NCBI GenBank assembly: GCA_030833685.1
Contig: JAURGS010000002.1
Span: forward strand, 1-34,237
DNA from: Rhodoferax sp.
Lineage (GTDB): Bacteria; Pseudomonadota; Gammaproteobacteria; Burkholderiales; Burkholderiaceae_C
DNA: 34,237 nt
Direction: 5' to 3'
Below the pieces are notes generated by a model, which saw nothing but the letters and a program-made list of their open reading frames with translations, made no database searches and was not told where the DNA came from. Shown piece after piece: positions 7,188 through 31,400 of the stretch. A program made the translations under genes and the position numbers. Every line of letters begins with the position of its first letter. Position 1 is the stretch's first letter.

Positions 7188-8420
7188 TCAGCTGTTTCTC
7201 ATGTACCGCCAGGCGATAGCACCAGCGACAAGCTGAAAAAACGCAATCGCGGCCACACTGGCGGGCCAGGCATACCACTCGTAGGCCAAGCCAGTGACCA
7301 CGGTGCCGGCAGCGCCGCCTGCGTAGTAGCTCATGTAGTACAGGCCGGTGGCCAGCGAGCGCCCCTGGGTAACCCGATCGGCAATACGGCTGATGGTTGC
7401 AGACTGGCACACGAATACGCCACAAGAACACAACACCAAGCCCACCAGAACGACCAAGAGATGAGGAATCAGCGTCAGCGCAAGCCCTAGCGCGCCAGCG
7501 CACAAGCCACCCAGCATGGATGGCAGATAGCCATGGCGTGCAATCAGCGGGCCTGCAAACGGCGTTGCAAAAGCACCAACCAAATAAACCATAAAAATAT
7601 TGGCCAGACCGGCGGAACTGAGCCTAAACGGCGCCTGAGCCAAGTGGAAGTTGATATAGGTGAACGTGCCAACCATGGTGAACAGCACGCAAAAACCGAC
7701 AGCACAGATAGCCAGTAAACGCTTATTTCGCAAATGCTGGGCGAGCATTGCCATGGCACCTGCAATATTGCGATTGGCAACGAAATGGCGTGACTCTGGC
7801 AAGGACCGCCAGACCCATATTGCCCCCAAGAGATTGATCAAGGCGAGGACCCAAAATCCGGAGCGCCAACTCAGCCAGTCTGCAAAATGACCGGTGATGA
7901 AACGGCCACTGAACCCCCCCATCACGGTGCCACCCACATACGTGGTGGTCATTTTGGCAAGCGTACTGCCCTGGAACTCCTCAGACAGGTAGGCGATCAG
8001 GACGACTACGATTCCTGGCACCGCCAGGCCCTGCAGAAAACGCATCAGCAGAACCACCCACAGGCTTTGCGACATCGCGATCAACGCTGTGGGCACCGTC
8101 AGCGCAAACATGGATATCACCATCAGCTGGCGACGACCCCAAGCATCTGACAGCATGCCCATGAACGGCGAGACCAGCGCAATAGCCAGAACGCTCACAC
8201 CCACGGTCAGGCCGGCTTGCGCGGGTGTGATGTTCAAGTCCTGGGTCACCAGCGGCAAAACGGCCTGCATGGCGTAGACGTTGAGAAAAGAGAAAAAACC
8301 CAGAATCCAGACGATAGAGCGCGAGGCCTGTGCCTGTGTGGCTTTGGGCTGGTACCGAGTCCAATTCACTTCAAGTCCTGTCTTCGCGAATGCCCGCATT
8401 GTCCCGCGCCTTGGATTCAT
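7188..8420 (-). CDS. MFS transporter
   Basis: 12-TM hydrophobic ORF, QAVLPLVTQDLNITPAQAGLTVGVSVLAIALVSPFMGMLSDAWGRRQLM (MFS motif). Exact start uncertain. Confidence 0.88.
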   Translation of the reverse strand: MNPRRGTMRAFAKTGLEVNWTRYQPKATQAQASRSIVWILGFFSFLNVYAMQAVLPLVTQDLNITPAQAGLTVGVSVLAIALVSPFMGMLSDAWGRRQLMVISMFALTVPTALIAMSQSLWVVLLMRFLQGLAVPGIVVVLIAYLSEEFQGSTLAKMTTTYVGGTVMGGFSGRFITGHFADWLSWRSGFWVLALINLLGAIWVWRSLPESRHFVANRNIAGAMAMLAQHLRNKRLLAICAVGFCVLFTMVGTFTYINFHLAQAPFRLSSAGLANIFMVYLVGAFATPFAGPLIARHGYLPSMLGGLCAGALGLALTLIPHLLVVLVGLVLCSCGVFVCQSATISRIADRVTQGRSLATGLYYMSYYAGGAAGTVVTGLAYEWYAWPASVAAIAFFQLVAGAIAWRYMRNS

Positions 8421-8581
8421 ACCTGGGTATGCGCAAAAAACAAATGTGCAGGCACTGTGACACTGATTTTTCTCCTGTGCGGAGTAAAAAATGCCAAGTG
8501 TTCAGCGCTACCCTCCTGCGCATGGCCTCAGTTCAGGCCTCACAGAAAAAAGCTTCTCGGCCAGCAAGCCAAAATACAACC

Positions 8582-9895
8582 ATGACAGACGCCTCAATCT
8601 GGTCAGCACTGCGTCAGGCACAACCCTGCTTCTGGGCCAACCCAAACAGAATCTCGCACGACGCTGTGCACGACAAGGCTCAAAACGACGAGTCGCGGCC
8701 TGTGCTTCCAAGCGAACAGCAGCTACAGGCGGCACGTCAGCGTCTTGCGCGCTTTGCGCCTTTGTTGGCGCATCTGTTCCCGCCCCTGCGCGAAAGCCAG
8801 GGCCAGATCACTTCACCACTCATAGCCGTGCCAGCCTTGCAGGACGCCCTCTCGTTTCCCAGGGCCCACGGGCAGCTCATGATCAAAGCGGACCACTGTC
8901 TGGCCGTAGCGGGCTCAGTGAAAGCACGCGGCGGCTTTCATGAGATTCTGGAGCTGAGCGAAAAACTCGCGGACAAGCACGATTTGCTTGGCCCCACTGC
9001 AGACGTACTGGACCTGGCCAACCCGCGATCGCGCGCGGTATTTAGCACCTACCAGGTGGCGGTAGGTTCAACCGGAAACCTGGGCATGAGCATTGGCTTG
9101 ATTGCAGCCGCTTTAGGCTTTCGCGCGACGGTTCACATGTCGCATGACGCGAAAGCCTGGAAAAAACAGCGACTGCGCGACAACGGAGTCGAGGTGTTGG
9201 AGCACTCAGGCGACTACGCGCTGGCGGTAGCGGCGGGACGTGAGAGCGCACGCCACGGCCCCCAAACCCATTTCGTCGACGACGAGCAATCCTTGTCGCT
9301 GCTGCTGGGCTACGCCTGCGCAGCCTTTGAATTGCAAAGCCAGTTGCAAGCGCAACGCATCCGCGTCGACGCTGCCCATCCCCTGATGGTCTACATCCCC
9401 TGTGGTGTAGGCGGAGCGCCCGCTGGCATTGCCTGGGGCCTGGATCTGGTTTTTGGTGCGCACGTACGCTGCTACTTTGCAGAGCCTTGCCAGGCACCGT
9501 GCTTCATGTTGCACATGGTCTCGCCAGCAGGAACGCAGCCTTCGGTCTACGACTTTGGCTTGCAAAACCGTACCATCGCTGACGGCTTGGCTGTGGCGCA
9601 AGCCTCCGCGCTCGCCGGGGCGTTGATGCAAGACCGACTGGCGGGCTGCTTCACCGTCGCCGACGACACCATGCTGCGTCACTTGGCACTGGCGCACGCC
9701 AGTGAGGGTCTGCAACTTGAACCCTCTGCCACGGCAGGTTTTGACGGCCCCGCCTGGCTTGCGCAAACCCAACAACTACACCCAGACTGCACCCATGTGC
9801 TTTGGACGACGGGGGGCGCGGTGATGCCAGAGGCCCAGTTCGCTCAGCTGCTCGATCAAGCCGCTACTCTTCCCCGCCACGCATCGCAGCCGTGA
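8582..9895 (+). CDS. dsdA: D-serine ammonia-lyase (D-serine dehydratase)
   Basis: PLP-fold II ORF: SVKARGGFHEILELSEKLA, GSTGNLGMSIGLIAAALGF, PCGVGGAPAGIAWGL. ORF open from 8330; MTDASIWSALRQAQPCFWANPN at 8582 is the likely start. Confidence 0.88.
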   Translation: MTDASIWSALRQAQPCFWANPNRISHDAVHDKAQNDESRPVLPSEQQLQAARQRLARFAPLLAHLFPPLRESQGQITSPLIAVPALQDALSFPRAHGQLMIKADHCLAVAGSVKARGGFHEILELSEKLADKHDLLGPTADVLDLANPRSRAVFSTYQVAVGSTGNLGMSIGLIAAALGFRATVHMSHDAKAWKKQRLRDNGVEVLEHSGDYALAVAAGRESARHGPQTHFVDDEQSLSLLLGYACAAFELQSQLQAQRIRVDAAHPLMVYIPCGVGGAPAGIAWGLDLVFGAHVRCYFAEPCQAPCFMLHMVSPAGTQPSVYDFGLQNRTIADGLAVAQASALAGALMQDRLAGCFTVADDTMLRHLALAHASEGLQLEPSATAGFDGPAWLAQTQQLHPDCTHVLWTTGGAVMPEAQFAQLLDQAATLPRHASQP

Positions 9896-11104: not shown

Positions 11105-12262
11105 ATGAAATGCGCCCTGGTTGGATCCCGTTATTTCGGCGCGCTGGTTTTCGAAACGCTGCGCAAGGAAGAAGGCCTCGAGTTCAGCTGCGTGGTCGCA
11201 CCCGCTGCAGATGATCGACTGGCACTGGCCGCTCAGGCTGCGGGCGTCACAGTGCATGTGCTGGAAACCCCGCGGTTCGTCCCCGAGGAAGCGATTGCAC
11301 CCGGAACCGATTTAATCCTGGCTGCTCACACCCATGCCCGAATCACCAATGAGGCGTTGGCCCGGGCGCGACTGGGCGGCGTGGGCTACCACCCCTCGCT
11401 GCTGCCGCGTCACCGCGGCATCGCGGCGGTCGAATGGACGATTCTGGAGGGCGATCCGATCGCTGGTGGTTCGGTTTATCACCTGGCAGACGGCTGGGAC
11501 GCTGGTTCCATCGCTGCGCAGGACTGGTGTTTTGTCCAAAAAGGCGAAACTGCGCGAGACCTGTGGGAGCGTGCGCTAGCACCCATGGGCCTGGCGCTTC
11601 TGAGCAAGGTCGCGCACCATGCCCGGCTCAACAACGAATTGCCAGCCTTCGCGCAGGACCCGCGCTTTGCGACCAAAGCGCCCATGATTAAAAAGTCTAT
11701 CGTCTTGAGCGAAGGGAGCGATACAACAACTGTCTCCGTGGTGGCAACCGTCAGTGGCGCGGACCGCCAGGGCATTGTCAGCTCGATCGCTGAGAGAGCC
11801 AAACGTTACCAGGCGAACTGGACAGCCAGCAGGCTGGCGCGGGCGGCCGGTGAGTTTGCCGGCATGGTGCACTTTGAAGTTGCCCCGGAAAACGCTGACG
11901 CCTTTGTTCAGGCACTCAAAGGCCTGGAAGCAGGCGGCTTGCAACTGGTTGTCACCAAGAGCAGCGCGGCGCAGGTCTCCACCACACATCGTGTTCTGGA
12001 CCTTCATCTGGTGGGTGATGATCGGGTCGGTATTGTTAGCAGCCTGACTGGCATGTTGACCGCGCGCAGCATCAGTATCGAGACCATGCAAACTGAGGTC
12101 ATACGTAGCAGCGCAGAGGGTAAGTCGACCTTCAAAATTACCGCGCAGCTCCTGGTACCCGCTTCGGTTCGGTCAGAGGCTTTAGAGCAAGAGCTCGGGT
12201 CACTGGCCAACGAGATGATGTTGGACATCGCCCTGGGTGATAAGGGTCTGAGCAAGGCCTAA
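11105..12262 (+). CDS. Formyltransferase-family protein with two C-terminal ACT (GcvR-like) domains
   Basis: N-terminus MKCALVGSRYFGALVFETLRKEE..., GYHPSLLPRHRGIAAVEWTILEGDPIAGGSVYHLADGWDAGSIAAQ (SLLP loop, His and Asp of the formyl_trans_N family). C-terminus has two GADRQGIVSSIAER / GDDRVGIVSSLTGML ACT repeats. Confidence 0.87.
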   Translation: MKCALVGSRYFGALVFETLRKEEGLEFSCVVAPAADDRLALAAQAAGVTVHVLETPRFVPEEAIAPGTDLILAAHTHARITNEALARARLGGVGYHPSLLPRHRGIAAVEWTILEGDPIAGGSVYHLADGWDAGSIAAQDWCFVQKGETARDLWERALAPMGLALLSKVAHHARLNNELPAFAQDPRFATKAPMIKKSIVLSEGSDTTTVSVVATVSGADRQGIVSSIAERAKRYQANWTASRLARAAGEFAGMVHFEVAPENADAFVQALKGLEAGGLQLVVTKSSAAQVSTTHRVLDLHLVGDDRVGIVSSLTGMLTARSISIETMQTEVIRSSAEGKSTFKITAQLLVPASVRSEALEQELGSLANEMMLDIALGDKGLSKA

Positions 12263-12264
12263 GC

Positions 12265-12882
12265 ATGCGCGCCATCACCCTGCACAGGCATCCGGACCGG
12301 ATGGTCATCCATGTTGAGCTTAAACAGAACAGTTTGCTCAAGAATGTGACTGACGAGCAGCTCGCAGAGCTGGAGGGCCACTTGCAGATCGTTGATGCAG
12401 CCAAGGGCGACTACCTGGTCACGCAGGGCGACCGTGACATGGAGCAATACTTTGTCTTGCAGGGCATGCTCAAGCGCGTCGTCACCGCGCCAGGCAGTAA
12501 AAAAGAAATGGCACTGCGTTTTTCTTCTGAGCGTGGCATGGAGACTTCTTACGCAGCCTGGCGCTTGCGCACACCTGCTCCCTACAGCATTGTTGCGTCC
12601 ACCAAATGCCGTGTTGCCAAGCTCAATATGCCCAAATGGGTCGAGTTTCTGGAGTTGCATCCAGAATTCAAAGCCGTCTTTGAGTTTGAAGTCATGGCGT
12701 TAATGGGTGAAATCATGGCGCATACCATCACACTACACCTGCTGGACGCGCCAGGGCGCGTACACCGCTTTGAGCGCAAGCACCCCGACTTGTTTGAGCG
12801 CATCCCCAAAAAAGAACTCGCGGCCTACCTCAACCTGTCCGCCGAGACGCTCAGTCGTCTCAAGCAGCGCGGAAAGATCTGA
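12265..12882 (+). CDS. Crp/Fnr-family transcriptional regulator
   Basis: cNMP-binding-like domain (LLKNVTDEQLAELEGHLQIVDAAKGDYLVTQGDRDMEQYFVLQGMLKR) plus C-terminal HTH IPKKELAAYLNLSAETLSRLKQRGKI with ExxSR. Starts 2 nt after the preceding stop codon. Confidence 0.88.
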   Translation: MRAITLHRHPDRMVIHVELKQNSLLKNVTDEQLAELEGHLQIVDAAKGDYLVTQGDRDMEQYFVLQGMLKRVVTAPGSKKEMALRFSSERGMETSYAAWRLRTPAPYSIVASTKCRVAKLNMPKWVEFLELHPEFKAVFEFEVMALMGEIMAHTITLHLLDAPGRVHRFERKHPDLFERIPKKELAAYLNLSAETLSRLKQRGKI

Positions 12883-13102: not shown

Positions 13103-14620
13103 CTACTGCTCGGCCGCCCTCAATTTATTCTTAACAATCCCATACAAGGGCATGAGCAAGAGCACCAAGGCTAGGGTGGTGATACCGCCTACCAAGAAGT
13201 TGGAGAAAAAGATTGAAAGATCACCCTGAGACGCCAGCATGGCTTGCCTGAACGAACTCTCGGTACGGTCACCAAGCACCACCGCCAGAACAAGTGGGGC
13301 CAGCGGGTACGACAGTTTCTTGAACAAGTAACCCACCACACCAAACAAGACCATCAGGTAGATGTCGAACTCAGAGTTATGCACGGTGTAGGCGCCAATC
13401 GCACAAATAACGATGATTACGGGTGCAATCACCGAGAAAGGAATACGCAAAATGGCGGCAAACAGCGGTACACAGGTCAGCACCACGATCAGACCCGCGA
13501 TATTGCCCAGATACATCGAGGCGATCAGCCCCCAGACAAAGTCCTTCTGCTCCACGAACAGCAGCGGTCCAGGCTCCAGGCCCCAAATCAGCAGACCGCC
13601 AAGCAAAACAGCAGCGGTTGGAGAACCTGGCACACCCAAAGTCAGCATCGGCAGCAAAGCCGAGGTACCTGCCGCATGGGCCGCGGTCTCAGGGGCCACC
13701 ACCCCTTCCACCTGGCCAGTTCCGAACTTTTCACCGTCTCGTGATGTGCGCCGGGCAACGCCATAGGCCATGAACGACGCAGGTGTGGCGCCACCAGGAA
13801 CAATACCCATGAAGCAACCAATGACAGACGAGCGGATCGACGTCATCCAGTACTTGGGCAACTCAGCCCAAGTACTAAGCACCACCCTGAGGTTGATCTT
13901 GGCCTTGGTGCCCTTGAATTCCAGCCCTTCCTCCAGGGTCTGCAAAATTTCGCCAATGCCGAACAAGCCAATAACGACCACCAAAAAGTCAAAGCCACTG
14001 AGGAGCGACTCAGTGCCAAAAGTCATGCGCAATGTGCCAGTGACGGTATCGGTTCCAACCGCAGACAGGGCAAAGCCAATCATCATGGCTACCACCGTCT
14101 TGAAGGGCGCTTCCTTGTTCATGCCGACAAAGGCACAGAAGGTCAGTAGATAGACCGAGAAAAACTCGGGCGGACCAAAGGCTAGCGCAAAATTAGCCAC
14201 GATCGGCGACAAAAAGGTCACCACCAAAATGGCGACAAAAGCGCCAATGAACGACGAGGTGAACGCAGCAGTCAGAGCCTCACCGGCACGGCCTTTCTGG
14301 CCCAGCGGATAGCCGTCAAAAGTGGTCGCCACCGACCAGGGTTCACCTGGGATATTGAACAGAATTGAGGTGATGGCACCGCCAAACAATGCGCCCCAGT
14401 AAATACACGACAGCAAAATAATCGCAGAAGTCTGGCCACCCGGTTGCTGCGCCATGGTGAAGGTCAGCGGTAACAAAATGGCCACGCCATTCGCGCCGCC
14501 GAGGCCCGGCAACACGCCAATGATCACGCCCAGAATCACGCCACCAAACATCAATAGGACGTTTTTAAGACTCAGTGCGATGGCAAAGCCATCCATCAAG
14601 GAGAAAAAGGAATCAGCCAT
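13103..14620 (-). CDS. tctA: Tripartite tricarboxylate transporter, large permease TctA
   Basis: 505 aa, GVIIGVLPGLGGANGVAILLPLTF, SILFNIPGEPWSVATTFDGYPL; adjacent tctB and tctC. Confidence 0.94.
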   Translation of the reverse strand: MADSFFSLMDGFAIALSLKNVLLMFGGVILGVIIGVLPGLGGANGVAILLPLTFTMAQQPGGQTSAIILLSCIYWGALFGGAITSILFNIPGEPWSVATTFDGYPLGQKGRAGEALTAAFTSSFIGAFVAILVVTFLSPIVANFALAFGPPEFFSVYLLTFCAFVGMNKEAPFKTVVAMMIGFALSAVGTDTVTGTLRMTFGTESLLSGFDFLVVVIGLFGIGEILQTLEEGLEFKGTKAKINLRVVLSTWAELPKYWMTSIRSSVIGCFMGIVPGGATPASFMAYGVARRTSRDGEKFGTGQVEGVVAPETAAHAAGTSALLPMLTLGVPGSPTAAVLLGGLLIWGLEPGPLLFVEQKDFVWGLIASMYLGNIAGLIVVLTCVPLFAAILRIPFSVIAPVIIVICAIGAYTVHNSEFDIYLMVLFGVVGYLFKKLSYPLAPLVLAVVLGDRTESSFRQAMLASQGDLSIFFSNFLVGGITTLALVLLLMPLYGIVKNKLRAAEQ

Positions 14621-14654
14621 GTGTATCTATCTCGTCAGTCAGTGGTGGATCGAA

Positions 14655-15161
14655 TCAGTCCAAGCCCAGCAGTGCTTCCACCGGGCCTTTTGGCAGGGGA
14701 ACCAGGAACCAGATTTCGAAAATCACATAAAAGAAAGCGGCCGTGCCAAAGCTCACCGCCGCGAGCTTGCTCCAGGCGTATTTGCCAAGCCACCTCATAA
14801 AGAAGCCGATATAAATGATCGATGGCAAATAAATGCCCAGCAAACCCACCAGCGCCACGTAAACAATCGAAGGCACCAACACGCTTAGAACCAGTTTCAG
14901 TTGCCCGACCTCCACAAAGGTGCCGTTCTCCTCGGCACTCATGCGTAAGCCACTGATGAAATTAGCGATCGACCCGATCACGATCAGCGCGCCAACATAA
15001 AACGGAAAGTAGCCGGTCTGCGGCCCATCCTCTGCCCATCCCGCGCCAATGCGCCAGTTGTCGTACATGACGATCGTGCCGAGTACGAAAGTGATGGTGG
15101 CCACCACCAACTCGGCTGTTTTGTATTTGAACGCCGCGCGAACATCTGATGCATTCACCAT
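14655..15161 (-). CDS. tctB: Tripartite tricarboxylate transporter, small permease TctB
   Basis: 4-TM ORF between tctC and tctA; SD-like GGAGAG before the ATG at 15161 (ORF open to 15182). Confidence 0.88.
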   Translation of the reverse strand: MVNASDVRAAFKYKTAELVVATITFVLGTIVMYDNWRIGAGWAEDGPQTGYFPFYVGALIVIGSIANFISGLRMSAEENGTFVEVGQLKLVLSVLVPSIVYVALVGLLGIYLPSIIYIGFFMRWLGKYAWSKLAAVSFGTAAFFYVIFEIWFLVPLPKGPVEALLGLD

Positions 15162-15233
15162 CAATCTCTCCGAAAAACTCAAAAAAAGTGCGCATGGACC
15201 CCATACGCACTTGTGACAACTGCTAAAACGATC

Positions 15234-16247
15234 TTATTTTTTCTCAGCCAAGAACCCGGCACCCTTCATCAGGTATTCATGGTCGCGCTCGGCCTTGGTG
15301 ACCCAGAAGAAATAATCCTGGCCCTCCAACTGAGACTGATTGAACGCACCCTTGGACATCAGTGCAGCCCAGTCGGGAGTGGCAATCACTTTGCGCATCA
15401 GGTTCACGTAGTAGTCAACCTGGTCTTTGCTCACACCGCCGGGCATGAAGATGCCACGCAGCATCAGGTAGGTCACATCGAGACCTTGCTCCTTGCAGGT
15501 TGGGATGTCGCCCCACGACATGGTGTCAGTCATCTTCTCTTTGTACGGCATGCGCTGGTCATCAAACACACACAAGGGGCGCAATTTGCCGCCACGCCAG
15601 TGCGCCACCGCTTCGCTGGGGTTATTCACCGACGAATCGATGTGCTTGCCCACCAATTGCACAGCCACCGCACCGCCACCTTTTTGTGGGATGTAGATAA
15701 ACTTCGCACCCGTCTGCTTTTCAATGGCAGCGGTGATGATCTGGTCTTCCTGCTTGGAGCCGGTACCGCCCATCTTCATCTTGTTGGGACCTGCCTTTTT
15801 CACAGCGTCCACGTACTCTTTAGCGGTCTTGTAAGGCGTGTCAGCATTGACCCACAACACAAACTCGTCGAGGGCGAGCATCTTGACTGGCGTCAGGTCT
15901 TTCCAGTTGAAAGGCACGCCTGTAGCCATGGGGGTAGTAAACAAATTCGACAGCGTGATGATGATCTTGTGAGGCTCACCCTTGGCACCCTTGACATCCA
16001 GAAAGCCTTCGGCGCCAGAGCCGCCCGACTTGTTGATCACCACCATCGGCTGTTTCATCAGGTTGTGTTTGACCACAATACCTTGGATCGCACGCGCCAT
16101 CTGGTCAGCGCCACCACCAGTACCGGCCGGGACGATGAACTCAACGGTCTTGGTCGGCTCCCAGGCCGCATGAACTGTCGAGGACAGCGCTGCCAGACCC
16201 ATAGCAGCCGCAAGGGCCGCCTTTTTGAATAACGTTTTTGCTTTCAT
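15234..16247 (-). CDS. tctC: Tripartite tricarboxylate transporter substrate-binding protein (TctC/Bug)
   Basis: Signal peptide MKAKTLFKKAALAAAMGLAALSSTVHA, then EFIVPAGTGGGADQMARAIQGIV. ORF open to 16370; likely start 16247. Confidence 0.93.
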   Translation of the reverse strand: MKAKTLFKKAALAAAMGLAALSSTVHAAWEPTKTVEFIVPAGTGGGADQMARAIQGIVVKHNLMKQPMVVINKSGGSGAEGFLDVKGAKGEPHKIIITLSNLFTTPMATGVPFNWKDLTPVKMLALDEFVLWVNADTPYKTAKEYVDAVKKAGPNKMKMGGTGSKQEDQIITAAIEKQTGAKFIYIPQKGGGAVAVQLVGKHIDSSVNNPSEAVAHWRGGKLRPLCVFDDQRMPYKEKMTDTMSWGDIPTCKEQGLDVTYLMLRGIFMPGGVSKDQVDYYVNLMRKVIATPDWAALMSKGAFNQSQLEGQDYFFWVTKAERDHEYLMKGAGFLAEKK

Positions 16248-16409
16248 ACTGTAGTCTCCTTGGTTACGGTCAAGAGCCTGTGGGCGCGGCAGAGAATCCC
16301 CAACGCTTAAACGGCTCAACTCTTTTGAATCTGATGGCCAGGGCATCACCCGGACCACCACCAACATCATACCGGCACGTAAGTGTCTCTCCGAGAGTGA
16401 TAAATACAG

Positions 16410-16553: not shown

Positions 16554-19388
16554 TCAAGCCGTCACCTCTGGCAATTGAGCCAGAATCTGTCCGCCACCAA
16601 AACTCAGGCGCGGCGCCAGGGTGCCACCGGCAGTGACGCGCACCGCACAATACTTGAACTCTGGAATCTTGGCAAAAGGGTCGAGCGCCGCGTTAGTCAG
16701 CCGGTTGATGGCGGCCTCGTAGTAGCAAAACGGCGCAAATACCGCACCTGGTGGGGAGCTGTCGTCAGCGCGCGCGTACAAAACCACTTCTCCCCGACGA
16801 GATTGCAGCGTCACCACGTCCCCTGCGGCGATACCCAAGCGCTCCATATCCAGCGGATGGATGAGCGCCACCGGATCGGGCTCAATAGCATCCAACATGG
16901 TGGCGCGGCGCGTCATGCTGCCAGTGTGCCAGTGCTCGAGTTGGCGACCCGTGATCAACACCATCGGGAACTCTGCGTCCGGGCGCTCGTTGGCAGGAAT
17001 CACGTCAGCCGGAACAAAACGGGCTTTGCCACCCTCTCGCGGAAACGTATCCGTGAACACCACCGACTGACCTGGGTCACCTTCTTGCTGGCAAGGGTAA
17101 GTCACTGCGTGCTCGCGTTCCAGACGTTCCCAGGTGATGCCACCAATACTGGGCATGGTGTGGCGCATCTCATCGAAAACCTCCGACACATGCTTGTAAT
17201 GCCAGTCCAGGCCCAAGCGACGGGCAATCTGCTCGATGATCCACAGATCTTGGCGCGCATCGCCCGGGGGATCAATCGCCTGGCGCCCCATTTGAACCAG
17301 TCGGTCAGTGTTGGTGAAGCTACCCGTTTTCTCAGGGAACGCACTGGCTGGCAGGATCACGTCGGCCAGGTAGGCCGTCTCGGTCAGAAAGATGTCTTGC
17401 ACCACCAGATGGTCCAGCGCTGCCAAGGCTTCACGGGCGTGGTTGGCATCAGGGTCTGACATGGCGGGGTTTTCGCCCATCACGTACATCCCGCGAATGT
17501 CGCCTTTTTGGATGGCATGCATGACCTCCACCACGGTCAAGCCTGGCTTGTCGTCCAGCGTGCCAGCATTCAAACCCCAGGCCGATTCAAAGCGTGCGCG
17601 CACCTCAGGCCTAGAGACATGTTGGTAGTCGGGCAGCATCATCGGAATCAAACCTGCGTCGGACGCGCCTTGCACATTGTTCTGCCCACGCAATGGGTGC
17701 AGACCCGTGCCCGGGCGGCCAATTTGTCCAGTCATCAGCGACAGGGCAATCAGGCAGCGTGCATTGTCGGTACCGTGCACATGCTGAGACACACCCATGC
17801 CCCACAAAATCATGGATGCCTTGGAGGAGGCGTAAAGGCGGGCGACATAACGGATGGTGTCGGCGTCAATGCCACAGATAGGCGCCATGCGCTCTGGGCT
17901 GTAATCGGCAACATTCGCCTTCAGTTCATCAAAGCCGATGGTCCGGCTGGCGATGAAGTCCTGGTCAACCAAGCCTTCCTCAACAATCACATGCATCATG
18001 GCGTTAAGCAGCGCCACATCGGTGTCGGGTTTGAACTGCAAATAGCGATGCGCCAAACGCGCCAAGTCAGAGCGACGCGGATCGCAAACAATTAGCTTGG
18101 TGCCGTTGATAACCGCATTCTTAATCCAGCTTGCGGCAACCGGGTGGTTGACCGTGGGGTTCGCACCAATCACGATCACCACCTCAGCCTGGGTGACATC
18201 CATGACCGGGTTGGAAACCGCACCCGATCCAATGCCTTCGAGCAATGCCACCACTGAGGAGGCATGACACAAACGCGTGCAGTGGTCGACGTTGTTAGTG
18301 CCAAAGCCGGTGCGCACCAGCTTCTGAAACAGGTAGGCTTCCTCGTTACTGCCTTTGGCTGAGCCAAAGCCTGCTAGTGCGGCCTTGCCATGTGTGTCAC
18401 GTATCGCCGCAAGCTTGCCGCCGGCGAACTCCAGGGCTTCCTCCCAGCTCGCTTCGCGAAAGATCGACATCACCTGATTGGGTTCCATCTGAAAGTCGCC
18501 GCGCTTGGGCGCATCCGCACGCCGAATCAGCGGCTTGGTTAAACGGTGCGGGTGGTGCGCGTAATCAAATCCATAACGTCCTTTGACGCACAGACGACCT
18601 TGATTGGCGGGGCCAGAGCGGCCATTAACAAACAAAATCTTGTTGTCCTTGACGTTGTAAGTTAGCTGACAGCCCACGCCACAGTACGGGCACACCGAGG
18701 ACACTTGCTTATCAGGCTTGGCCATGCCCACGCCGCGCGCTGGCATCAGTGCACCAGTGGGGCAGGCCTGAACGCATTCGCCACAGGCCACGCAGGTAGA
18801 AGCGCCCATGGGATCATCCATGTCAAACACAATCTGGGCATGCTCACCGCGAAAGGCCAGCCCGATCACATCATTGACTTGCTCGTCGCGGCAGGCTCGC
18901 AGGCATCGGGTGCACTGAATACAGGCATCCAGATTCACGGCAATCGCGGGGTGTGATAAGTCCTGGTGAACAGCAGCACGGGCCTTGAAACGCGGCTTAC
19001 CCACACCGAGCTGTTCAGACCAGAAGTCCAGATCATTGCGGCGGGTGTACGCTGTCTCTGGCATATCGGCCTGCAAGAGCTCAAGCACCAATTTTTGTGA
19101 CTTGATTGCTCGCTCGCTCTGGCTATTGACCTTCATGCCTTCAGTCGGTGCGCGGCAGCACGATGGGGCCAGCACCCGCTCGCCGGCAACTTCCACCACA
19201 CATGCACGGCAGTTGCCCGCCTTGTCCAAGCCGTCTTTGTAGCAAAGATGCGGGATCTTCACGCCGTTGACCTTGGCCACATCCAGAATGGTCTGATTAC
19301 CGGTGGCCTGCACCGCGCGCCCATTGAGTTCAAAGTTGACCGTGGGCGTCTGCAGCTGGGCTTGCTCTTTGCGAGTGATTGCGTTCAT
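16554..19388 (-). CDS. NAD-dependent formate dehydrogenase alpha (catalytic, Mo/W-bisPGD) subunit
   Basis: 944 aa with N-terminal 2Fe-2S and 4Fe-4S domains (CIQCTRCLRACRDEQ, CVACGECVQACPTGAL), VCPYCGVGCQ, active-site region VDHCTRLCHASSV, and a C-terminal molydopterin-binding domain. Confidence 0.93.
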   Translation of the reverse strand: MNAITRKEQAQLQTPTVNFELNGRAVQATGNQTILDVAKVNGVKIPHLCYKDGLDKAGNCRACVVEVAGERVLAPSCCRAPTEGMKVNSQSERAIKSQKLVLELLQADMPETAYTRRNDLDFWSEQLGVGKPRFKARAAVHQDLSHPAIAVNLDACIQCTRCLRACRDEQVNDVIGLAFRGEHAQIVFDMDDPMGASTCVACGECVQACPTGALMPARGVGMAKPDKQVSSVCPYCGVGCQLTYNVKDNKILFVNGRSGPANQGRLCVKGRYGFDYAHHPHRLTKPLIRRADAPKRGDFQMEPNQVMSIFREASWEEALEFAGGKLAAIRDTHGKAALAGFGSAKGSNEEAYLFQKLVRTGFGTNNVDHCTRLCHASSVVALLEGIGSGAVSNPVMDVTQAEVVIVIGANPTVNHPVAASWIKNAVINGTKLIVCDPRRSDLARLAHRYLQFKPDTDVALLNAMMHVIVEEGLVDQDFIASRTIGFDELKANVADYSPERMAPICGIDADTIRYVARLYASSKASMILWGMGVSQHVHGTDNARCLIALSLMTGQIGRPGTGLHPLRGQNNVQGASDAGLIPMMLPDYQHVSRPEVRARFESAWGLNAGTLDDKPGLTVVEVMHAIQKGDIRGMYVMGENPAMSDPDANHAREALAALDHLVVQDIFLTETAYLADVILPASAFPEKTGSFTNTDRLVQMGRQAIDPPGDARQDLWIIEQIARRLGLDWHYKHVSEVFDEMRHTMPSIGGITWERLEREHAVTYPCQQEGDPGQSVVFTDTFPREGGKARFVPADVIPANERPDAEFPMVLITGRQLEHWHTGSMTRRATMLDAIEPDPVALIHPLDMERLGIAAGDVVTLQSRRGEVVLYARADDSSPPGAVFAPFCYYEAAINRLTNAALDPFAKIPEFKYCAVRVTAGGTLAPRLSFGGGQILAQLPEVTA

Positions 19389-19398
19389 GGGTAAGGCC

Positions 19399-21099
19399 TC
19401 AGGTCAGCTCGTTAGGAAAATACTTGATCACACAGTCGATGGGGTTGGGCGCCGCCTGGCCCAGGCCGCATATCGACGCATCGCGCATCACTGCCGATAG
19501 ATCTGCCAACAAATCCTGGTCCCAAGTAGCCTGCTCGATCAAATCAGACGCCTTGGCTGTTCCGTTACGGCAAGGCGTGCACTGCCCACACGATTCGTGC
19601 TTGAAGAATCGCAGTGTGTTGCGTGCTGCCGCCACTGCAGTGTCTTTGTCAGACAGCACCACCACCGCCGCTGAGCCGATGAAGCACCCGTAGGGCTGCA
19701 GCGTGTCAAAGTCCAGGGGAATGTCGTTCATGCTCGCCGGCAAAATGCCGCCTGACGCGCCGCCTGGCAGGTAGCCATAAAAACGGTGGCCGTCCTGCAT
19801 GCCACCACAGTAATCGTCGATCAAGGCCTGAATGGTGATGCCTGCAGGAGCCAGCTTGACCCCTGGTGAACGCACGCGACCCGACACAGAAAACGAGCGC
19901 AGACCTTTGCGGCCATTGGCCCCGTGGCTGGCAAACCAAGCCCCACCTTTTTCAAGCAACTCACGCACCCAGAAAAGGGTTTCAAAGTTGTGCTCCAGCG
20001 TTGGGCGCCCGAACAAGCCAACTTGTGCCACGTAAGGCGGGCGCAGGCGCGGCATGCCGCGCTTTCCCTCAATGGATTCGATCATGGCCGACTCTTCGCC
20101 ACAAATATAGGCCCCGGCGCCACGGCGCAAACTGATCGACGGCAGCTGTGCAGCTAAGACCGGGTCTGCCTGCAGTTTGGCAAGTTCTGTTTCCAGCATT
20201 GCACGACAACCGTGGTACTCGTCGCGCAGGTAGATGTAGACCTGATCGATGCCAACGGCCCAGGCGGCAATCAGCATGCCTTCCAGAAAGCGGTGCGGGT
20301 CGGTCTCCAGCATTGCACGGTCCTTGAAGGTGCCAGGTTCGCCCTCGTCGATGTTTACCGCCATCAGGCGGGGTGCCGCTTCGGCGCGAACAATGCGCCA
20401 TTTGCGCCCAGCCGGAAAGCCAGCGCCACCTAAGCCCCGCAGACCTGAGTCTTCCAGCGTGCGAATAACACTGTCGACATCGCGCTTGCCCTGCCAGCAG
20501 GCCTGCATCAGGGCATAACCCCCCGCCGCGCGGTACGCATCCAGGTCCAGAAAACCGGTAGGAATATGCTGCGTTTGCCCACTCGCAACCGTCTTGGCTA
20601 TCGCATCAGCCGTGGCCTGAGGCACTGGGTTTTGACCCACCACCGCCGCCGGCGCTTGCTCGCAGCGGCCAATGCAAGGCGCGGCAATCACGCGCACCTC
20701 GCGCCCCAGCAGGGTGGGCAACTTGGCCAACAGGTCCTGCGCACCCGCCATCTCGCAGGACAAGCCGTCACACACCCTCACCGTGAGCATGGGTGGCGCC
20801 TCCTGACCCTCTTTAACCACGTCAAAGTGGTGGTAGAAGGTCGCAACCTCGTACACCTCGGTTTGCGCCAGTTGCATCTCCTGGGCCAACGCGGCCAGGT
20901 GCGCCGCAGACAAATGCCCATAGCGATCTTGAATTTTGTGCAGATGCTCGATGAGCAGATCGCGACGCAGAGGCTGTTCACCCAGCAAAGCCTTCACTTG
21001 CAACAGTGCTTCAGGATCGACACGGCGGCCCTTGGGCGCCTGGCGCTTGCGCTCCTGGGTACTGGCCTGCACTGCAATCGGTATCACCGGATGGTTCAT
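19399..21099 (-). CDS. NAD-dependent formate dehydrogenase beta subunit, NuoE/NuoF (24 kDa/51 kDa-like) fusion
   Basis: N-terminal thioredoxin-like 2Fe-2S domain (VRVCDGLSCEMAG...APCIGRCEQAPA) fused to a 51-kDa flavoprotein domain (GLRGLGGAGFPAGRKW, GAYICGEESAMIESIEGKRGMPRLRPPY, ESCGQCTPCRNGT). Confidence 0.94.
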   Translation of the reverse strand: MNHPVIPIAVQASTQERKRQAPKGRRVDPEALLQVKALLGEQPLRRDLLIEHLHKIQDRYGHLSAAHLAALAQEMQLAQTEVYEVATFYHHFDVVKEGQEAPPMLTVRVCDGLSCEMAGAQDLLAKLPTLLGREVRVIAAPCIGRCEQAPAAVVGQNPVPQATADAIAKTVASGQTQHIPTGFLDLDAYRAAGGYALMQACWQGKRDVDSVIRTLEDSGLRGLGGAGFPAGRKWRIVRAEAAPRLMAVNIDEGEPGTFKDRAMLETDPHRFLEGMLIAAWAVGIDQVYIYLRDEYHGCRAMLETELAKLQADPVLAAQLPSISLRRGAGAYICGEESAMIESIEGKRGMPRLRPPYVAQVGLFGRPTLEHNFETLFWVRELLEKGGAWFASHGANGRKGLRSFSVSGRVRSPGVKLAPAGITIQALIDDYCGGMQDGHRFYGYLPGGASGGILPASMNDIPLDFDTLQPYGCFIGSAAVVVLSDKDTAVAAARNTLRFFKHESCGQCTPCRNGTAKASDLIEQATWDQDLLADLSAVMRDASICGLGQAAPNPIDCVIKYFPNELT

Positions 21100-21123: not shown

Positions 21124-22371
21124 TCAAATGACCTGCTCAGCCCGCAGCGCCTGGATATCGGCTGCGCTATAGCCCAGCTGACTCAACACCTCATCGGTAT
21201 GCTCACCCAGCAAGGGCGAACGCGTCACCACGGTGGGGCTGTCTGACATCTTGATCGGGTTACCCACAGTGAGGTATTTGCCGCGCACGGGGTGGTCTAC
21301 TTCGACAACCGTACCGCTTGCGCGCAGCGCCTCGTCTTCGGCAATCTCTTTCATCGACAAAATTGGGCCGCATGGAATGTCGTAGGCGTTGAGAATGTCC
21401 ATGGCCTCGAACTTGGTCTTGGTCTTGGTCCACTCTTCAATGCGGGCAAAAATCATCTTCAAATGCGGCAACCGCGCTTTCGGTGTCGAGAAGTGCGGAT
21501 CGGTGATCCAACCCTCCTCGTCAATCACCTTGCAAATCGCTGGCCACACTGCCGCCTGGGTGATGAAATAGATGTAGGCATTCGGGTCTTTTTGCCAGCC
21601 CTTGCATTTCAGGATGGAGCCGGGCTGGCCGCCACCTGACGCATTGCCTGCCCGCGGCACGGCCTCACCAAATTCAATGTCCGGGTACTGCGGGTATTCC
21701 TGCAACTCGCCGGTGCGCTCCAGACGCTGCTGGTCACGCAACTTGACCCGGCACAAATTCAAGACCGCATCTTGCATGGGTGCCAGCACCTTCTGCCCTT
21801 TTCCGCTTGTTTGCCGTTGCAGCAGCGCAGCCATGATGCCCAGGGCCAGATGCAAGCCTGTGCCGCTGTCGCCAATCTGTGCTCCAGTCACCAAAGGGGG
21901 GCCATCGTCAAATCCCGTGGTGGATGCGGCACCGCCTGCGCATTGCGCCACGTTCTCATAGACTTTGCAGGCCTCGTACTTGCCCGGGCCAAAGCCTTTG
22001 ACCGAAGCCACCACCATGCGCGGATTGAGTTCGTGTATGCGCTCCCAGGTAAAGCCCATACGGTCTAAGGCACCTGGCGCAAAATTCTCGACCAACACAT
22101 CACACTGCTTGATTAAAGCCTCCAGAACCTGCTTGCCCTTCGGATGTTTGGTGTTGACCGTGATCGAGCGCTTGTTGTGGTTGAGCATGGTGAAGTACAA
22201 GCTGTCGGCCTCGGGTATGTCCCGCAGCTGTCCACGGGTGGCATCGCCCTCGCCGGCTCGCTCCACCTTGATCACGTCGGCGCCGAACCAGGCCAGCAGT
22301 TGGGTACAGGTAGGCCCAGACTGCACGTGGGTGAAGTCCAAAATTCGGTAGCCATTCAAAGCCTTGCTCAT
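21124..22371 (-). CDS. Second formyl-CoA:oxalate CoA-transferase-like protein (class III CoA-transferase)
   Basis: [46 protein letters not shown] (Asp), [11 protein letters not shown] loop. Closely resembles the neighbouring frc. Confidence 0.9.
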
Positions 22372-22401: not shown

Positions 22402-22857
22402 TTATTGCTGCCCTGAGCCCGGCGCCTGGTGCTGCGCCTCGAGCTGGGCCAATCGGGCTCGCATGGTCTTTTCTTCTTCAAAACGTTTGGTTTCATCGCG
22501 GATGACAGCAACAACCTTGTCCACTTCACCCGTTTCACTACGCAGCAAACTCACCGTCATTGCGATTGACAGCGCCTGACCGCTACTGTGTAGCGCCGGC
22601 ACTCGAAGCAAGGTGTCGCCATAACGGGAGTGCCCGCTTTGCATGGCTTGACGGTACCCAGCCCAGTGACGCTCTCGGTAACGCTCAGGCGTAATCAGGT
22701 CTAGCGACTGCCCTATGGCATGCTGCGCGTCATAACCAAACAGCTTTTCAGCTGCCGGGTTCCACCAGCAGATCAGCCCTTGTACGTCAGCAGCAACCAC
22801 GGCGTCGGCCAGGGCCGACAGCAAGTTCGCTGAACTGATGGAATTGGGCATCTGCAA
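22402..22857 (-). CDS. Standalone PAS-domain protein
   Basis: ALADAVVAADVQGLICWWNPAAEKLFGYDAQHAIGQSLDLITPERYRERHWAGYRQAM...VVAVIRDETKR; no output domain in the 151-aa ORF. Confidence 0.85.
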   Translation of the reverse strand: MQMPNSISSANLLSALADAVVAADVQGLICWWNPAAEKLFGYDAQHAIGQSLDLITPERYRERHWAGYRQAMQSGHSRYGDTLLRVPALHSSGQALSIAMTVSLLRSETGEVDKVVAVIRDETKRFEEEKTMRARLAQLEAQHQAPGSGQQ

Positions 22858-22963: not shown

Positions 22964-24235
22964 TTAGACCGCTTTGCCCTCGTGCATAGCCTTGATCTGC
23001 TCTGCAGAGTAGCCCAGCTCAGCCAGAACCTCGTCGGTGTGCTGGCCCAGCAGCGGAGATGCCGTCACCTCGGGCTAGAGATCAGAGAACTTGATCGGGC
23101 TGCCAACCGTGTAGTAGCTGCCACGCACTGGGTGCGGGACTTCAACGATGGAGCCGCTCTTGCGAAGTGACTCGTCACGCAGCAACTCGGCCATGCTCAG
23201 CACCGGTGCGCAGGGGATGTCAAATTTGCGGAAGATGTCAACGGCCTCGTACTTGGTCTTGTCTTTGATGAAGTCTTCGATGGTGCCAAAAATCTCCATG
23301 ATGTGTGGCTGACGACCACGCGGCGTGTTGTAGGCCGGATCATCTTTCCACTCGGGCTTGCCCAGCGCATCACAAATTGGGCCCCAGGCGTGACCCTGGA
23401 TAGTGAAGTAGATATACGCATTGGGGTCGGTTTCGTGACCCTTGCACTTCAGAATCCAGCCCGGCTGACCACCGCCGCCAGCGTTGCCGCCGCGTGGTGT
23501 GACTTTGCTGGCGAAGGCTTCCATCTCGTGGGGGTACTGTGGGTACTCTTCCAGGTAGCCCACACGCTCCAGACGCTGCTGGTCACGCATCTTCACGCGG
23601 CAAAGGTTCAACACGGCGTCCTGCATGGAGACCGCCACTTTCTGCCCTTTGCCGGTCTTCTGGCGGCCAATCACGGCCGTCAAGATACCGATGGCCAGGT
23701 GCATGCCCGTGTTGGAGTCGCCTAAAGCGGCAGCCGAAATGGTGGGCTCAGAGTTCTCGCCTTTCCACCAGCCTGTCGTAGAAGCGGCACCACCAGCGCA
23801 TTGCGCCACGTTCTCGTAGACCTTGAGGTCTTCGTAATGGTGGCCTTCGCTAAAGCCCTTGACCGAGGCCAGAATCATGCCGGGGTTGAGCTTTTGGATG
23901 TACTCCCAGGTAAAGCCCATGCGGTCCAGCGCGCCAGGGCCGAAGTTCTCGACCATGACATCGGATTCGCGGATCAGTTTTTCCAGAACTTCCTTGCCAG
24001 CGGCTGTCTTGGTGTCCAGCGTCAGCGAGCGCTTGTTGCTGTTGAGCATGGTGAAGTACAGGGCATCGGCATCCGGAATGTCGCGCAACTGGCTGCGTGT
24101 GACGTCGCCGGAGCCGGGGCGCTCAACCTTGATCACGTCAGCGCCGAACCAAGCCAGCAACTGGGTACAGGCTGGGCCTGCCTGAACGTGGGTGAAGTCA
24201 ATGATTTTGATGCCACTCAGTGGTTTGTTGTCCAT
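22964..24235 (-). CDS. frc: Formyl-CoA:oxalate CoA-transferase, interrupted by an in-frame TAG at 23075-23077
   Basis: [17 protein letters not shown]-like N-terminus, [54 protein letters not shown]. The frame continues past the TAG as [36 protein letters not shown] to 22964. Confidence 0.9.
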
Positions 24236-24269: not shown

Positions 24270-25997
24270 TTACTTCTTTTTGGCAGCTTGAGGATTCAAG
24301 CTGGTGATACGCCCGCTCTCGGTACCCGCCGTCTCATCAATCACAGCATTGATCAGAGTGGGCTTGCGCGAACGGAAGGCCTCGTCGATGCCCGCTCTGA
24401 GCTCAGCGGGTGTGGTTGCGTGAACGCCCACACCACCGAAGGCTTGCATCATCATGTCGTAGCGCGCGCCCTTGACGAAAACCGTTGGCGCCACATCTGC
24501 GCCGCCTGTCGGGTTGACGTCTGTGCCCTTGTACACGCCATTATTGTTCATCACAACGATACACACCGGCAGGTTGTAGCGACAGACCGTCTCCACCTCC
24601 ATGCCAGAGAAACCGAATGCGCTGTCACCTTCCACGGCCAGAACCTGCTCTCCAGTGACCACAGCCGCAGCGACAGAAAAGCCCATGCCGATGCCCATGA
24701 TGCCCCAGGTGCCCACGTCCAGACGCTTGCGGGGTTTGTACATGTCGACGATCGAGCGCGTGAAATCCAATGCGTTTGCACCCTCGTTAACCAAAATGGT
24801 GTCCTGGTGCTGACGCATCACGTCCTTGACCACGGCCAAGGCGCTGTGAAAGTTCATCGGCGTCGGGTTCTTGGCCAGGGTGTCGGCCATCTTGGCAATG
24901 TTCTTGCCGGTGCGCTCAGAGATCGCCTGCGTCCATTCAGCCGGCGGCTTGGCCCAGTTGTTGCCCATGGCATCCAAGAGCGCAGACACACAGGACCCGA
25001 TGTCGCCAATCACAGGCGCGTCGATCGCCACGTTGCTGTCAGCCTCGATCGGCGAGATATCAACCTGAATGTATTTTTGAGCGCCCCAGGCTTTGTGGTT
25101 GGCGCCACCCCAGGTCTTGCCTTTGCCATGCGACAGCAGCCAGTTCAGGCGTGCGCCAATCAAGAGCACCACGTCCGCTTCGGGCAGCACGAACGAGCGG
25201 GCCGCAGCAGCAGACTGCGCATGGTTGTCAGGCAAGATGCCTTTGGCCATGGACATGGGCAAATACGGAATGCCCGATTTCTCCACCAAGGTACGGATGG
25301 CCTCATCCGCCTGCGCATAAGCTGCGCCCTTGCCCAGCAGAATCAAGGGCTTCTTGGCGCCTTTGAGCAAATCAATGGCGCGCTGCACAGCGTCGCCCCC
25401 TGGGATCTGTTTGGGCGCCGGATCGACCACCTTGATCAGCGACGCACGCCCAGCCTGCAGCGGCATGCTTTGGGCAAACAGCTTGGCCGGCAGATCCAGG
25501 TAAACACCACCCGGTCGCCCCGATACCGCCGAGCGAATCGCGCGGGCCACACCCACACCAATATCCTCCGCATTCAATACCCGGTAAGCCGCCTTGCACA
25601 AGGGCTTGGCGATCGCCAACTGGTCCATTTCCTCGTAATCACCCTGCTGCAGGTCCACGATTTCGCGCTCAGAGGAGCCGCTAATCAGGATCATGGGAAA
25701 GCAGTTGGTGGTGGCGTTCGCCAGCGCGGTCAGGCCATTCAAAAAGCCAGGCGCCGACACCGTCAGGCAAATGCCTGGCTTTTGGGTCAGAAAACCGGCG
25801 GCCGCAGCGGCATTGCCCGCATGCTGTTCGTGCCGGAAAGAAATCACCCGCAGACCTTCGGCTTGCGCCATGCGGGTCAGGTCGGTGATCGGAATACCGG
25901 GCAGGCCAAAAATGGAGTCAATACCATTGAGCTTGAGCGCCTCAATCAGCAAGTGGAAACCATCAATGGTTTCAGTCGATTCTTGAATTTCAGACAT
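24270..25997 (-). CDS. oxc: Oxalyl-CoA decarboxylase
   Basis: ThDP enzyme: [78 protein letters not shown]-terminal [27 protein letters not shown] open to 26117; likely start 25997. Confidence 0.95.
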
Positions 25998-26115
25998 AGG
26001 TTTCAAACCATGAGTTATGGGGTAGTGGCCCAAGGCCCTGAGCCTGTTTCGAGCCGCTGGTTGTCGCGCCAAGACGGGTGTTCGGTGTGTGAGCCACACT
26101 GACGCGACAGGCCAC

Positions 26116-26121
26116 ATTATC
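26116..26121 (-). promoter_or_regulatory. Candidate -10 element GATAAT for the oxc operon
   Basis: Reverse complement of ATTATC. Placing this at -12 to -7 gives a TSS near 26109, with the FNR-like box centred at -41.5. Confidence 0.5.
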
Positions 26122-28407: not shown

Positions 28408-31400
28408 CTAGGCGGGATAAAGATGGTTCGCACGCAGGGCTTGCAAACTGGCGCCAACCTGATCGAGCAACGCACGCTTGAGCTCCTCGGTCAAGGCCTC
28501 GCCGCCGCGCAAGGCATCGCAGGTCGATCGCGCTAATTTGCACACGGCTTTATCTCCACAATTCCCCGATGAACCAATCAGGCTGTGGGCCAGCTTCTCC
28601 ATCTCCTCCATGGGGGTTTCAGCCCGGATAGCCTGTTGCCAGTTTTGCTGCCAGACCGCGAGTTCATCGCCGTACATTTTCAAAAGTTCGCGCAGACCAT
28701 CAAGGTCACTGCCAAACAAAAGCTTGAGGTCGGCAAGATCAAACCCTTCTATGTCAAAAGTTGGCGTCTTGGACTCAGTGCTGGTTTTCGCTTCTCGGCT
28801 CTGGGCCTCAACGCGCACAGTGTGATCCAAACCGGGCTTGGCATATCGGTGCAATACGTCCGCCAGGGCAGCAACATTCAGGGGCTTGACGATAAACCCG
28901 TTCATACCCGCCGACAGCGCCGCATCGCGATCTTCACCGTAAGCCGCAGCTGTGAGCGCAACAATTGGAATAGCCTGAGTCCGGTGGCTTGAGCGGATCT
29001 TGCGGGTTGCCTCAAGTCCGCCCATTTCCGGCATGTGCAAGTCCATCAAAACCAAATCGATGGCAGGCTGGCTCAAGTCCGCCAGACGTTCGATGCTGGC
29101 GCGACCACTGTCCACCAGTTCAGCCTGAACACCCAAATCCTCCAGCATGCGTGCAACCACCAAACGGTTGAGTTGGTTGTCGTCAACCACCAGCACGCGA
29201 AACTTCCCACCAAACAAGCGCGCGCCGGCGTCCACAGCACGGCCCATTTCATCGGCCACGATCACCGCATCCGAAGCCACTTCGCGCTCAAGCCCTTTAT
29301 CAGTGCGGTTCATCGGCAACTCAAACCAGAACATCGATCCGCCATCTGGGCTTGACTGCATGCCGATGGTCCCACCCATCAAGGTCACCAGCTGCTTACA
29401 TATGCTCAAGCCAAGGCCAGTGCCACCGAAGCGCCGCTTGATTGAAGTATCGGCCTGGGTAAAGCGATCAAAAATAGTGCTCACCGCATCCTCAGGAACC
29501 CCGATTCCGGTATCGAGACACTCCACGCGCAACCCCGGCACTCCACCATCCAAATCCACCGGCATGATGCGCAACTTGACCGAGCCAGTCTGGGTGAATT
29601 TGATCGCGTTGCCAACAAAGTTGTCCATGACCTGGCGCAGTTTGCCTACATCGCCGTCATAGACTGAGGCGCAATCAGGCGACACATCCAACAACAAGTC
29701 CAGGCCCTTGACCTCGGCCGATCGTCGGTGAAGATCAGTCACCGATTTACCCATGAGCCTGACCGAAACGGGCTCGATTCGCAGCTGGCTATGGCCCGCC
29801 TCTAAGGAGGAAAAATCCAAAATGTCGTTGAGGGTGCGCATCAGGCCATTCGACGCCTGCGATATTGCCAGCAAATCTTCTCTTTGTCGCTCGGTCAGCT
29901 TGGTCTTCAACACGCCTGGGAGCAGGCCGATGATCGCATTCATGGGGGTTCGAAGCTCATGGCTCATCACCGCCAAAAACTCGCTCTTGGCTCGATCGGC
30001 TGACAGTGCGGCGTCCTTGGCCTGCTCGATCGCACGACGGGCCTCCATCTCAACCGAGATGTCACGCAGAACGCACAAGGTTTGCCCGCCAGCTTGACCT
30101 TCGATCCTGGAAACCGACAGATCGACCGGAACCTCCGTCGCGTCAGCGCGTTGCAGCAGCAACTGGTAGCGGCCAGTCGGCAATTGCCCAGGATGCGCGT
30201 CAAAAAAAGCCCTGATGCGCTCATCCGGGTCCGCTTGGGTCGAGTGGGCACGCAGAGTCTCAAAGAGAGGCTTGCCCGAGAGTTGCTCCAAGGACCAACC
30301 CCCAAGCGCTTGCGCTGCTGGGTTGCATTCCAAAAGTGCGCCATTGGAGTCCAACAAGACGATGCCGTCGGTGGCCGCTGACATTACTGTTTGGAACCGG
30401 TCCAGGCTGGCCCGTAATTCGGTGACATCCTGAATCGTTCCATACTCCACGCTGCCGCCACCGGGCTGTGTGATGAACCGTCCTGAGAGCCACACACTCT
30501 TGACATGGGAGCCCAAATTCAGACGCACCGTCACATCCCATTCTCCGCGATCGTAGGCACCACGCACAGAACGGTCGAAAGACGCGACATCGTCCGGATG
30601 AACCAGTGCACGCAGATCCTGCCAGCCCATGTCTGGGGTCAGTGGACGCTGCAGAATATTTCGCACCTCGTTTGAAAACTCCAAACCCAGGTGCGGCTTG
30701 CGGGTCCAGGTGCCGATCTTTGCGGCAGCTTGCGAGCGCTCAATCTCGTCCTGTCGCTCTGCAAGCCTCCCCGTTTTTTCTTGAACCTCAGAGACAACAA
30801 GCATATGTCGTCCAGAGATCATCAAAAAAATCATTTGAAGCAGGATCGCAGCAAGCAAAACCAATAGCGGCGCCCAAATTCCAAAAAAACTGGCACCCTC
30901 AGACCCAGTGGGTACTCCGCTCACCGTAAGCCGCCAGTACTGGTCGAAAAACGGCAACTCCACATCGGCTACAAAAGACCCCGACAAGGTGCCTTGAGAG
31001 CCAGCCGTCGCAACAGGCTCGGAAGCACCCTGGGGAAAGAGTTCGACCCTCAAGCCGTTGCGCTCAAGCGCTAAGAGTGCGGTCTCCAACATGGGCTGAA
31101 GTCGAACGACCGCAACGCTAAAACCCATCAAACTCTGGGATGTCGGAGCACCGGTCAACTGACCGGATTTCACGATCGGCTCCAACACCAGAACCCCACG
31201 CTGATTGTCCTGAACCAAGCGAATCGGCTTTGTCACGGAGGTGTCTTGTCTGAGGATCGCCGCCTCAATGGCAGCACGGCGAACCGGATCAGAGCCAATG
31301 TCAAAACCCACGGCCCCCTCGTTGCCAACCAGCGGCGCGATGTAGGTCACCGGAACGTAGTTGGGTTGGTCAGGCTGCGCCGGGCCAACGCCACTGGGTC

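Follow-up and report, generated by a model that had tools for sequence, protein, structure and literature searches.

What does a formyltransferase that ends in two ACT domains do in a bacterium that carries genes for oxalate degradation? The question is raised by a gene, here called FT_ACT, in a 34,237-nucleotide stretch of DNA from Rhodoferax sp., which is referred to as the window. The gene and its parts are located as follows.

11105-12262, plus strand: FT_ACT coding sequence, 385 amino acids plus stop (open frame, Pfam, family alignment)
11105-11680, plus strand: formyltransferase N-domain (Pfam, ALDH1L1 match, alignment)
11384-11386, plus strand: codon of Gly94, at the Asn position of the NxH motif
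11390-11392, plus strand: codon of His96
11498-11500, plus strand: codon of Asp132
11732-11959, plus strand: first ACT domain, about residues 210-285 (Pfam, structure model)
11987-12238, plus strand: second ACT domain, about residues 295-378 (Pfam, curated models, structure model)

The FT_ACT reading frame starts with the ATG at 11105, which follows a GGAG at a distance of about 9 nt; the TTG at 11084 is less probable as start codon. Pfam places Formyl_trans_N at residues 66-158 (E=6e-18) and ACT_6 in two stretches, the best at residues 212-271 (E=1e-15), and the second ACT domain is also matched by other ACT models below their cut-offs. No Formyl_trans_C was found by Pfam in FT_ACT, and the ACT pair occupies its place. 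The AlphaFold model has a mean pLDDT of 71 and a pTM of 0.51; the formyltransferase domain is mostly at pLDDT 85-96, except for residues 100-120, and the ACT region, at about 50-85, is only moderately confident. Compared with the PDB, the first part of the model has a formyltransferase fold (ALDH1L1 hydrolase domain, ArnA, Fmt) and the second part a tandem-ACT fold (2nyi, GcvR 1u8s, SerB2). The best solved relative by sequence is the ALDH1L1 hydrolase domain, matched over FT_ACT residues 1-190 (E=8e-19). The order of a formyltransferase followed by two ACT domains, which had been read from the sequence, is thus confirmed by Pfam, the AlphaFold model and the PDB matches. The motifs GYHPSLLPRHRG and DGWDAG are present as described, and the suggested likenesses to ALDH1L1 (in sequence, fold and the Asn-less site) and to GcvR (fold match to 1u8s) are right.

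FT_ACT has an undescribed domain architecture, in which a formyltransferase domain is joined directly to two ACT domains; no tandem-ACT formyltransferase was found in the open-access literature. An assembly artefact is ruled out as the origin of the fusion, as 63 near-complete sequences, several of them from isolates, align end to end. The ALDH1L1 hydrolase domain shares with FT_ACT the H-P-S-L-L-P loop, the catalytic His and Asp and the replacement of the Asn, and is also among its best matches by fold, but where FT_ACT has its two ACT domains, ALDH1L1 has a Formyl_trans_C region together with carrier and ALDH domains. PurU likewise combines ACT with the formyltransferase fold, and the architecture of FT_ACT was originally described as an inverted PurU-like one. 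The order is indeed reversed relative to the PurU family (TIGR00655 / PRK06027; 23.3 bits with PRK06027 against a cut-off of 223), but the framing is misleading: PurU has one ACT domain, and its catalytic domain, which keeps the Asn, lies on another branch of the tree together with PurN. The Fmt model TIGR00460 gives 58.4 bits (cut-off 201.5), and FT_ACT differs from that family in Gly94 and in having no Formyl_trans_C. GcvR-type tandem-ACT proteins share the tandem-ACT fold and DRxGI loops with FT_ACT but lack a formyltransferase domain (NF008612, 27.1 bits against 267).

When one genome of each GTDB species was scanned, full-length FT_ACT orthologs (55-73% identity) were identified in 74 Burkholderiales loci, from Oxalobacteraceae, Comamonadaceae, Burkholderiaceae, Alcaligenaceae and metagenome bins of the same kind; the isolates include Herminiimonas, Massilia, Noviherbaspirillum and Caballeronia. 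The 62 near-complete orthologs are 55-72% identical to the FT_ACT of the window. The 63-row alignment has no variation at G94, Y95, H96 and D132 or within the stretch PSLLPRHRGIAAVEWTILEGD. The ACT part is more variable than the catalytic domain, with the Asp and Gly of the DRxG loops kept. FT_ACT is rare in random samples: it occurs in two of 299 genomes from the order, one of them the window's genome, and in four of 237 from one family. A search of 60 genomes of the same genus found no FT_ACT, so the window's genome probably acquired it. Binning contamination of the contig has no support: its Mfd is mostly 72-85% identical to those of same-genus genomes and 49-65% identical to others.

The FT_ACT gene in the window converges on tctABC-fdhAB-frc1-PAS-frc2-oxc, with one further gene between them.

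12265-12882, plus strand: CRP-like regulator gene, 2 nt after FT_ACT
13103-16370, minus strand: tripartite carboxylate transporter genes tctA (13103-14620), tctB (14655-15182) and tctC (15234-16370), conserved in oxalate regions
16554-21099, minus strand: formate dehydrogenase genes for the alpha subunit (16554-19388) and a NuoEF-like subunit (19399-21099)
21124-22371, minus strand: frc1, formyl-CoA:oxalate CoA-transferase
22402-22857, minus strand: single PAS-domain protein of 151 amino acids, encoded between frc1 and frc2 and conserved in many oxalate regions of the FT_ACT type
23075-24235, minus strand: frc2, second formyl-CoA transferase
24270-26117, minus strand: oxc, oxalyl-CoA decarboxylase, the source of formyl-CoA

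Homologs of the CRP-like gene adjoin oxc or tctA in most of the oxalate regions examined, usually in divergent orientation to oxc, and the gene is likely the oxalate regulator. Its 2-nt spacing from FT_ACT in the window, together with the GcvR type of the tandem ACT domains, would fit a role of FT_ACT as a sensor of folate or amino acids, without catalytic activity, that works together with this regulator. We regard such a sensor as very improbable, as the catalytic domain is better conserved than the ACT part, the His and Asp are present in every member, and the CRP-like gene was found beside FT_ACT in the window only, at none of the other FT_ACT loci examined. The wider window contains a D-serine ammonia-lyase gene beside an MFS transporter gene (8330-9895, about 1.2 kb upstream of FT_ACT), with none seen near FT_ACT at other loci, and, beyond the oxalate genes, a gene for a 1317-residue hybrid histidine kinase with MASE1, CHASE, PAS, receiver and Hpt domains (28408-32361).

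The link to oxalate extends beyond the window. Oxc scores above its curated cut-off in 37 of 38 FT_ACT genomes, as opposed to 53 of 299 in the order (Fisher p about 1e-23). The homologs are therefore not distributed independently of oxc, in agreement with the oxalate and C1 link that had been anticipated. In a family in which oxc is common (106/237 above cut-off), all four FT_ACT genomes carry oxc (p=0.04). In the family of genome G582, most of the oxc-positive genomes have no FT_ACT. Co-localization of FT_ACT and oxc as a rule was rejected, as only three genomes (G000, G484 and G489, the window's genome included) have both within about 12 kb; a further locus, L102, has formate dehydrogenase genes near FT_ACT. 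An oxalate role of FT_ACT is well supported by its distribution.

Other oxalate operons contain a different formyltransferase of about 310 residues, which we call FT310. It is composed of Formyl_trans_N and Formyl_trans_C (PF02911) without ACT domains. The hydrolase domain of ALDH1L1 is matched over its entire length (E=2e-73), and no NCBIfam model is matched above its cut-off. FT310 lies close to frc in all ten loci inspected, mostly at 3-150 nt, with oxc beyond where the stretch reaches. In a profile search of 80 genomes, FT310 was present in none of the 38 FT_ACT genomes (37 of them oxc-positive), in 26 of 30 oxc-positive genomes lacking FT_ACT and in none of 12 oxc-negative genomes. With seven earlier genomes added, the count is 33/37 in oxc-positive genomes without FT_ACT against 0/37 in those with it (p about 1e-16, uncorrected for relatedness). 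Several of the genomes are incomplete; that of the window is 74% complete. The companion type switches at least four times on a tree of 40 Oxc proteins, with six switches on the best tree, and the exclusion therefore does not stem from a single clade. Two genomes of the window's own genus (L011 and L012) carry oxc-frc-FT310, with an Frc 85-86% identical to Frc1 of the window. FT_ACT thus appears to replace the FT310 of other oxalate operons. The two types of region differ in more than the formyltransferase gene, as fhs is present in 9/20 FT310-type regions and in 0/19 FT_ACT-type regions, and FT310 regions usually carry another Frc subtype. An alphaproteobacterial plasmid (L116:3862-9671) has the operon oxc-frc-FT310-fhs, in which FT310 was deposited as a methionyl-tRNA formyltransferase; the co-distribution of these formyltransferases with oxc suggests that this label is wrong.

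An alignment of the catalytic domains of FT_ACT, PurN, PurU, Fmt, ALDH1L1, HypX, FT310 and phage-type enzymes has the His and Asp in common to all. Two residues ahead of the His, PurN, PurU and Fmt retain an Asn, which is replaced by Ile in ALDH1L1, Val in HypX, Gln or Cys in FT310, and Gly in FT_ACT and the small phage-type enzymes. On the formyltransferase tree, the proteins without this Asn fall together on one side (93/73), where HypX is a long branch of unsure placement. FT_ACT and FT310 are not sisters: FT310 groups weakly with ALDH1L1 (87/54), and FT_ACT shares a branch (100/99) with small formyltransferases encoded in phages, on a Delftia plasmid, and in PKS/NRPS or similar neighborhoods. 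Since PurU, a true hydrolase, keeps the Asn, its loss would point to a thiol rather than water as the reaction partner. The ALDH1L1 domain passes its formyl group to a phosphopantetheine thiol (PMC8748788), and HypX has been proposed to pass formyl from 10-formyl-THF to CoA (PMC6802093). The N-terminal domain of HypX is a very distant Asn-less His/Asp relative; in HypX, which serves CO synthesis, its fusion partner is an enoyl-CoA hydratase domain and not an ACT pair.

These comparisons bear on whether FT_ACT could be an ACT-controlled 10-formyl-THF hydrolase, a safety valve resembling PurU. When growth on oxalate overfills the folate pool with C1 units derived from glyoxylate and glycine, such an enzyme would release formate to be oxidized by formate dehydrogenase. 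The closest solved relative is named a hydrolase domain, ACT is likewise coupled to this fold in PurU, the window and three other loci have formate dehydrogenase genes near FT_ACT, and an adjoining aminotransferase could make glycine. We nevertheless consider hydrolysis unlikely. PurU is found above cut-off in 32/39 FT_ACT genomes, which also rejects the idea that FT_ACT replaces it; the Asn of PurU is missing; and a hydrolase beside fhs, as FT310 is on the plasmid, would form a futile cycle. The ALDH1L1 domain itself hydrolyzes in vitro only with high levels of non-physiological sulfhydryls (PMC8748788).

The aminotransferase is of class V and of the serine-pyruvate / alanine-glyoxylate type (best PDB match 3ke3). 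It lies within 200 nt of FT_ACT on the same strand in 25/74 loci, upstream in 14 and downstream in 11, and the occurrence of both arrangements implies a functional pair. By analogy with sugar N-formyltransferases beside PLP aminotransferases, FT_ACT might formylate an amine product of this neighbor, which would make the tie to oxalate indirect; it would fit that no acceptor is known for the closest relatives of its domain, which occur in phage and PKS/NRPS contexts. We give this possibility a slim chance. The Asn required by amine transferases, which corresponds to Ile104 in ALDH1L1 (PMC4388273), is Gly in 63/63 FT_ACT sequences, 15/37 FT_ACT genomes are without such an aminotransferase (22/37 have one at E<=1e-40), and the association of FT_ACT with oxc is the stronger of the two.

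A role of some kind in oxalate-linked formyl and folate metabolism is likely for FT_ACT. We propose that its N-domain moves formyl between N10 of tetrahydrofolate (THF) and the thiol of CoA, with Oxc as the source of the formyl-CoA; this exchange as such is an evenly balanced call. His96 and Asp132 would catalyze the transfer in an active site of the ALDH1L1/HypX type, without the Asn seen in amine formyltransferases. The two ACT domains would stand in for the usual C-terminal domain and probably tune the activity through an amino acid, most likely glycine or serine. FT_ACT would take the part played by FT310 elsewhere among oxalate operons. Counted against the exchange are the usual separation of FT_ACT from oxc, the four oxc-positive genomes with neither enzyme (G621 and G717, both of the G582 family, G709 and G529), the lack of FT_ACT in most oxc-positive genomes of that family, the moderate confidence of the modeled ACT region, and the position of FT_ACT on the tree, not sister to FT310 but nearer to phage-type enzymes of unknown acceptor.

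The likely net flow during growth on oxalate would be formyl-CoA + THF -> 10-formyl-THF + CoA, a supply of C1 units without ATP. We favor this assimilating direction. In the reverse direction, FT_ACT would make formyl-CoA from 10-formyl-THF and CoA and thereby prime the Frc/Oxc cycle or replenish its CoA thioesters, which are lost through hydrolysis of formyl-CoA or withdrawal of oxalyl-CoA for biosynthesis. This is rather improbable, although our confidence in it overlaps with that in the exchange, being the same chemistry run the other way. The reverse reaction is the thermodynamically less favored one, and fhs, which in 9/20 FT310-type regions could supply 10-formyl-THF from formate, is near oxc in none of the FT_ACT-type regions. 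Priming agrees in direction with ALDH1L1 and the HypX proposal, and is the chief alternative because the priming of the Frc/Oxc cycle is a problem on record and formyl-CoA is short-lived, with a half-life of 1.9 h (PMC3720670); acetyl-CoA:oxalate CoA-transferases or a promiscuous Frc can, however, also prime (PMC3720670).

With the assimilating direction, we hypothesize that FT_ACT and the neighboring aminotransferase supply both halves of serine. Oxalate would be converted through glyoxylate to glycine by the aminotransferase, and through formyl-CoA to 10-formyl-THF by FT_ACT, and the C1 units and glycine together could feed serine synthesis. Tentatively, FT_ACT and FT310 may be independently recruited formyl-CoA:tetrahydrofolate formyltransferases that form an ATP-free link between oxalate and folate, gated by the ACT domains in FT_ACT. 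No such transferase in oxalate metabolism was found in the open-access literature, nor was the activity found assigned to a stand-alone gene.

Frc, Oxc and formate dehydrogenase are usually the only enzymes named in accounts of oxalate degradation. That a formyltransferase tracks oxc throughout Burkholderiales, in two alternative forms that do not overlap, points to a formyl-CoA-folate step that has been overlooked, and a new step in oxalate metabolism is probable on these genomic grounds; the original interpretation is partly supported and sharpened. Such a step would explain where oxalate growers obtain C1 units, or how their CoA cycle stays primed. It would also be a metabolic counterpart to the thiol formyl transfer of ALDH1L1 and HypX, and a part for synthetic formyl-CoA or formate assimilation.

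The phage-type formyltransferases (PHROG 9240) are the closest catalytic-domain branch to FT_ACT, and their profile matches FT_ACT residues 1-192 (E=3e-44). They are single-domain proteins of about 200 residues without ACT domains, in contrast to the 385 residues of FT_ACT with its ACT pair, and no oxalate link was seen for them in their phage, plasmid or PKS/NRPS contexts. In a Pseudomonas phage (L115:2889-4618) and a Gordonia phage (L117:1086-2962), the formyltransferase gene directly follows a gene for an ABC-ATPase/GNAT fusion, called by Pfam; the same order is present in the Delftia plasmid (L035:about 9040-10603), where the fusion was recognized by eye. The pair is possibly a phage modification module with a formyl step, for example of DNA.
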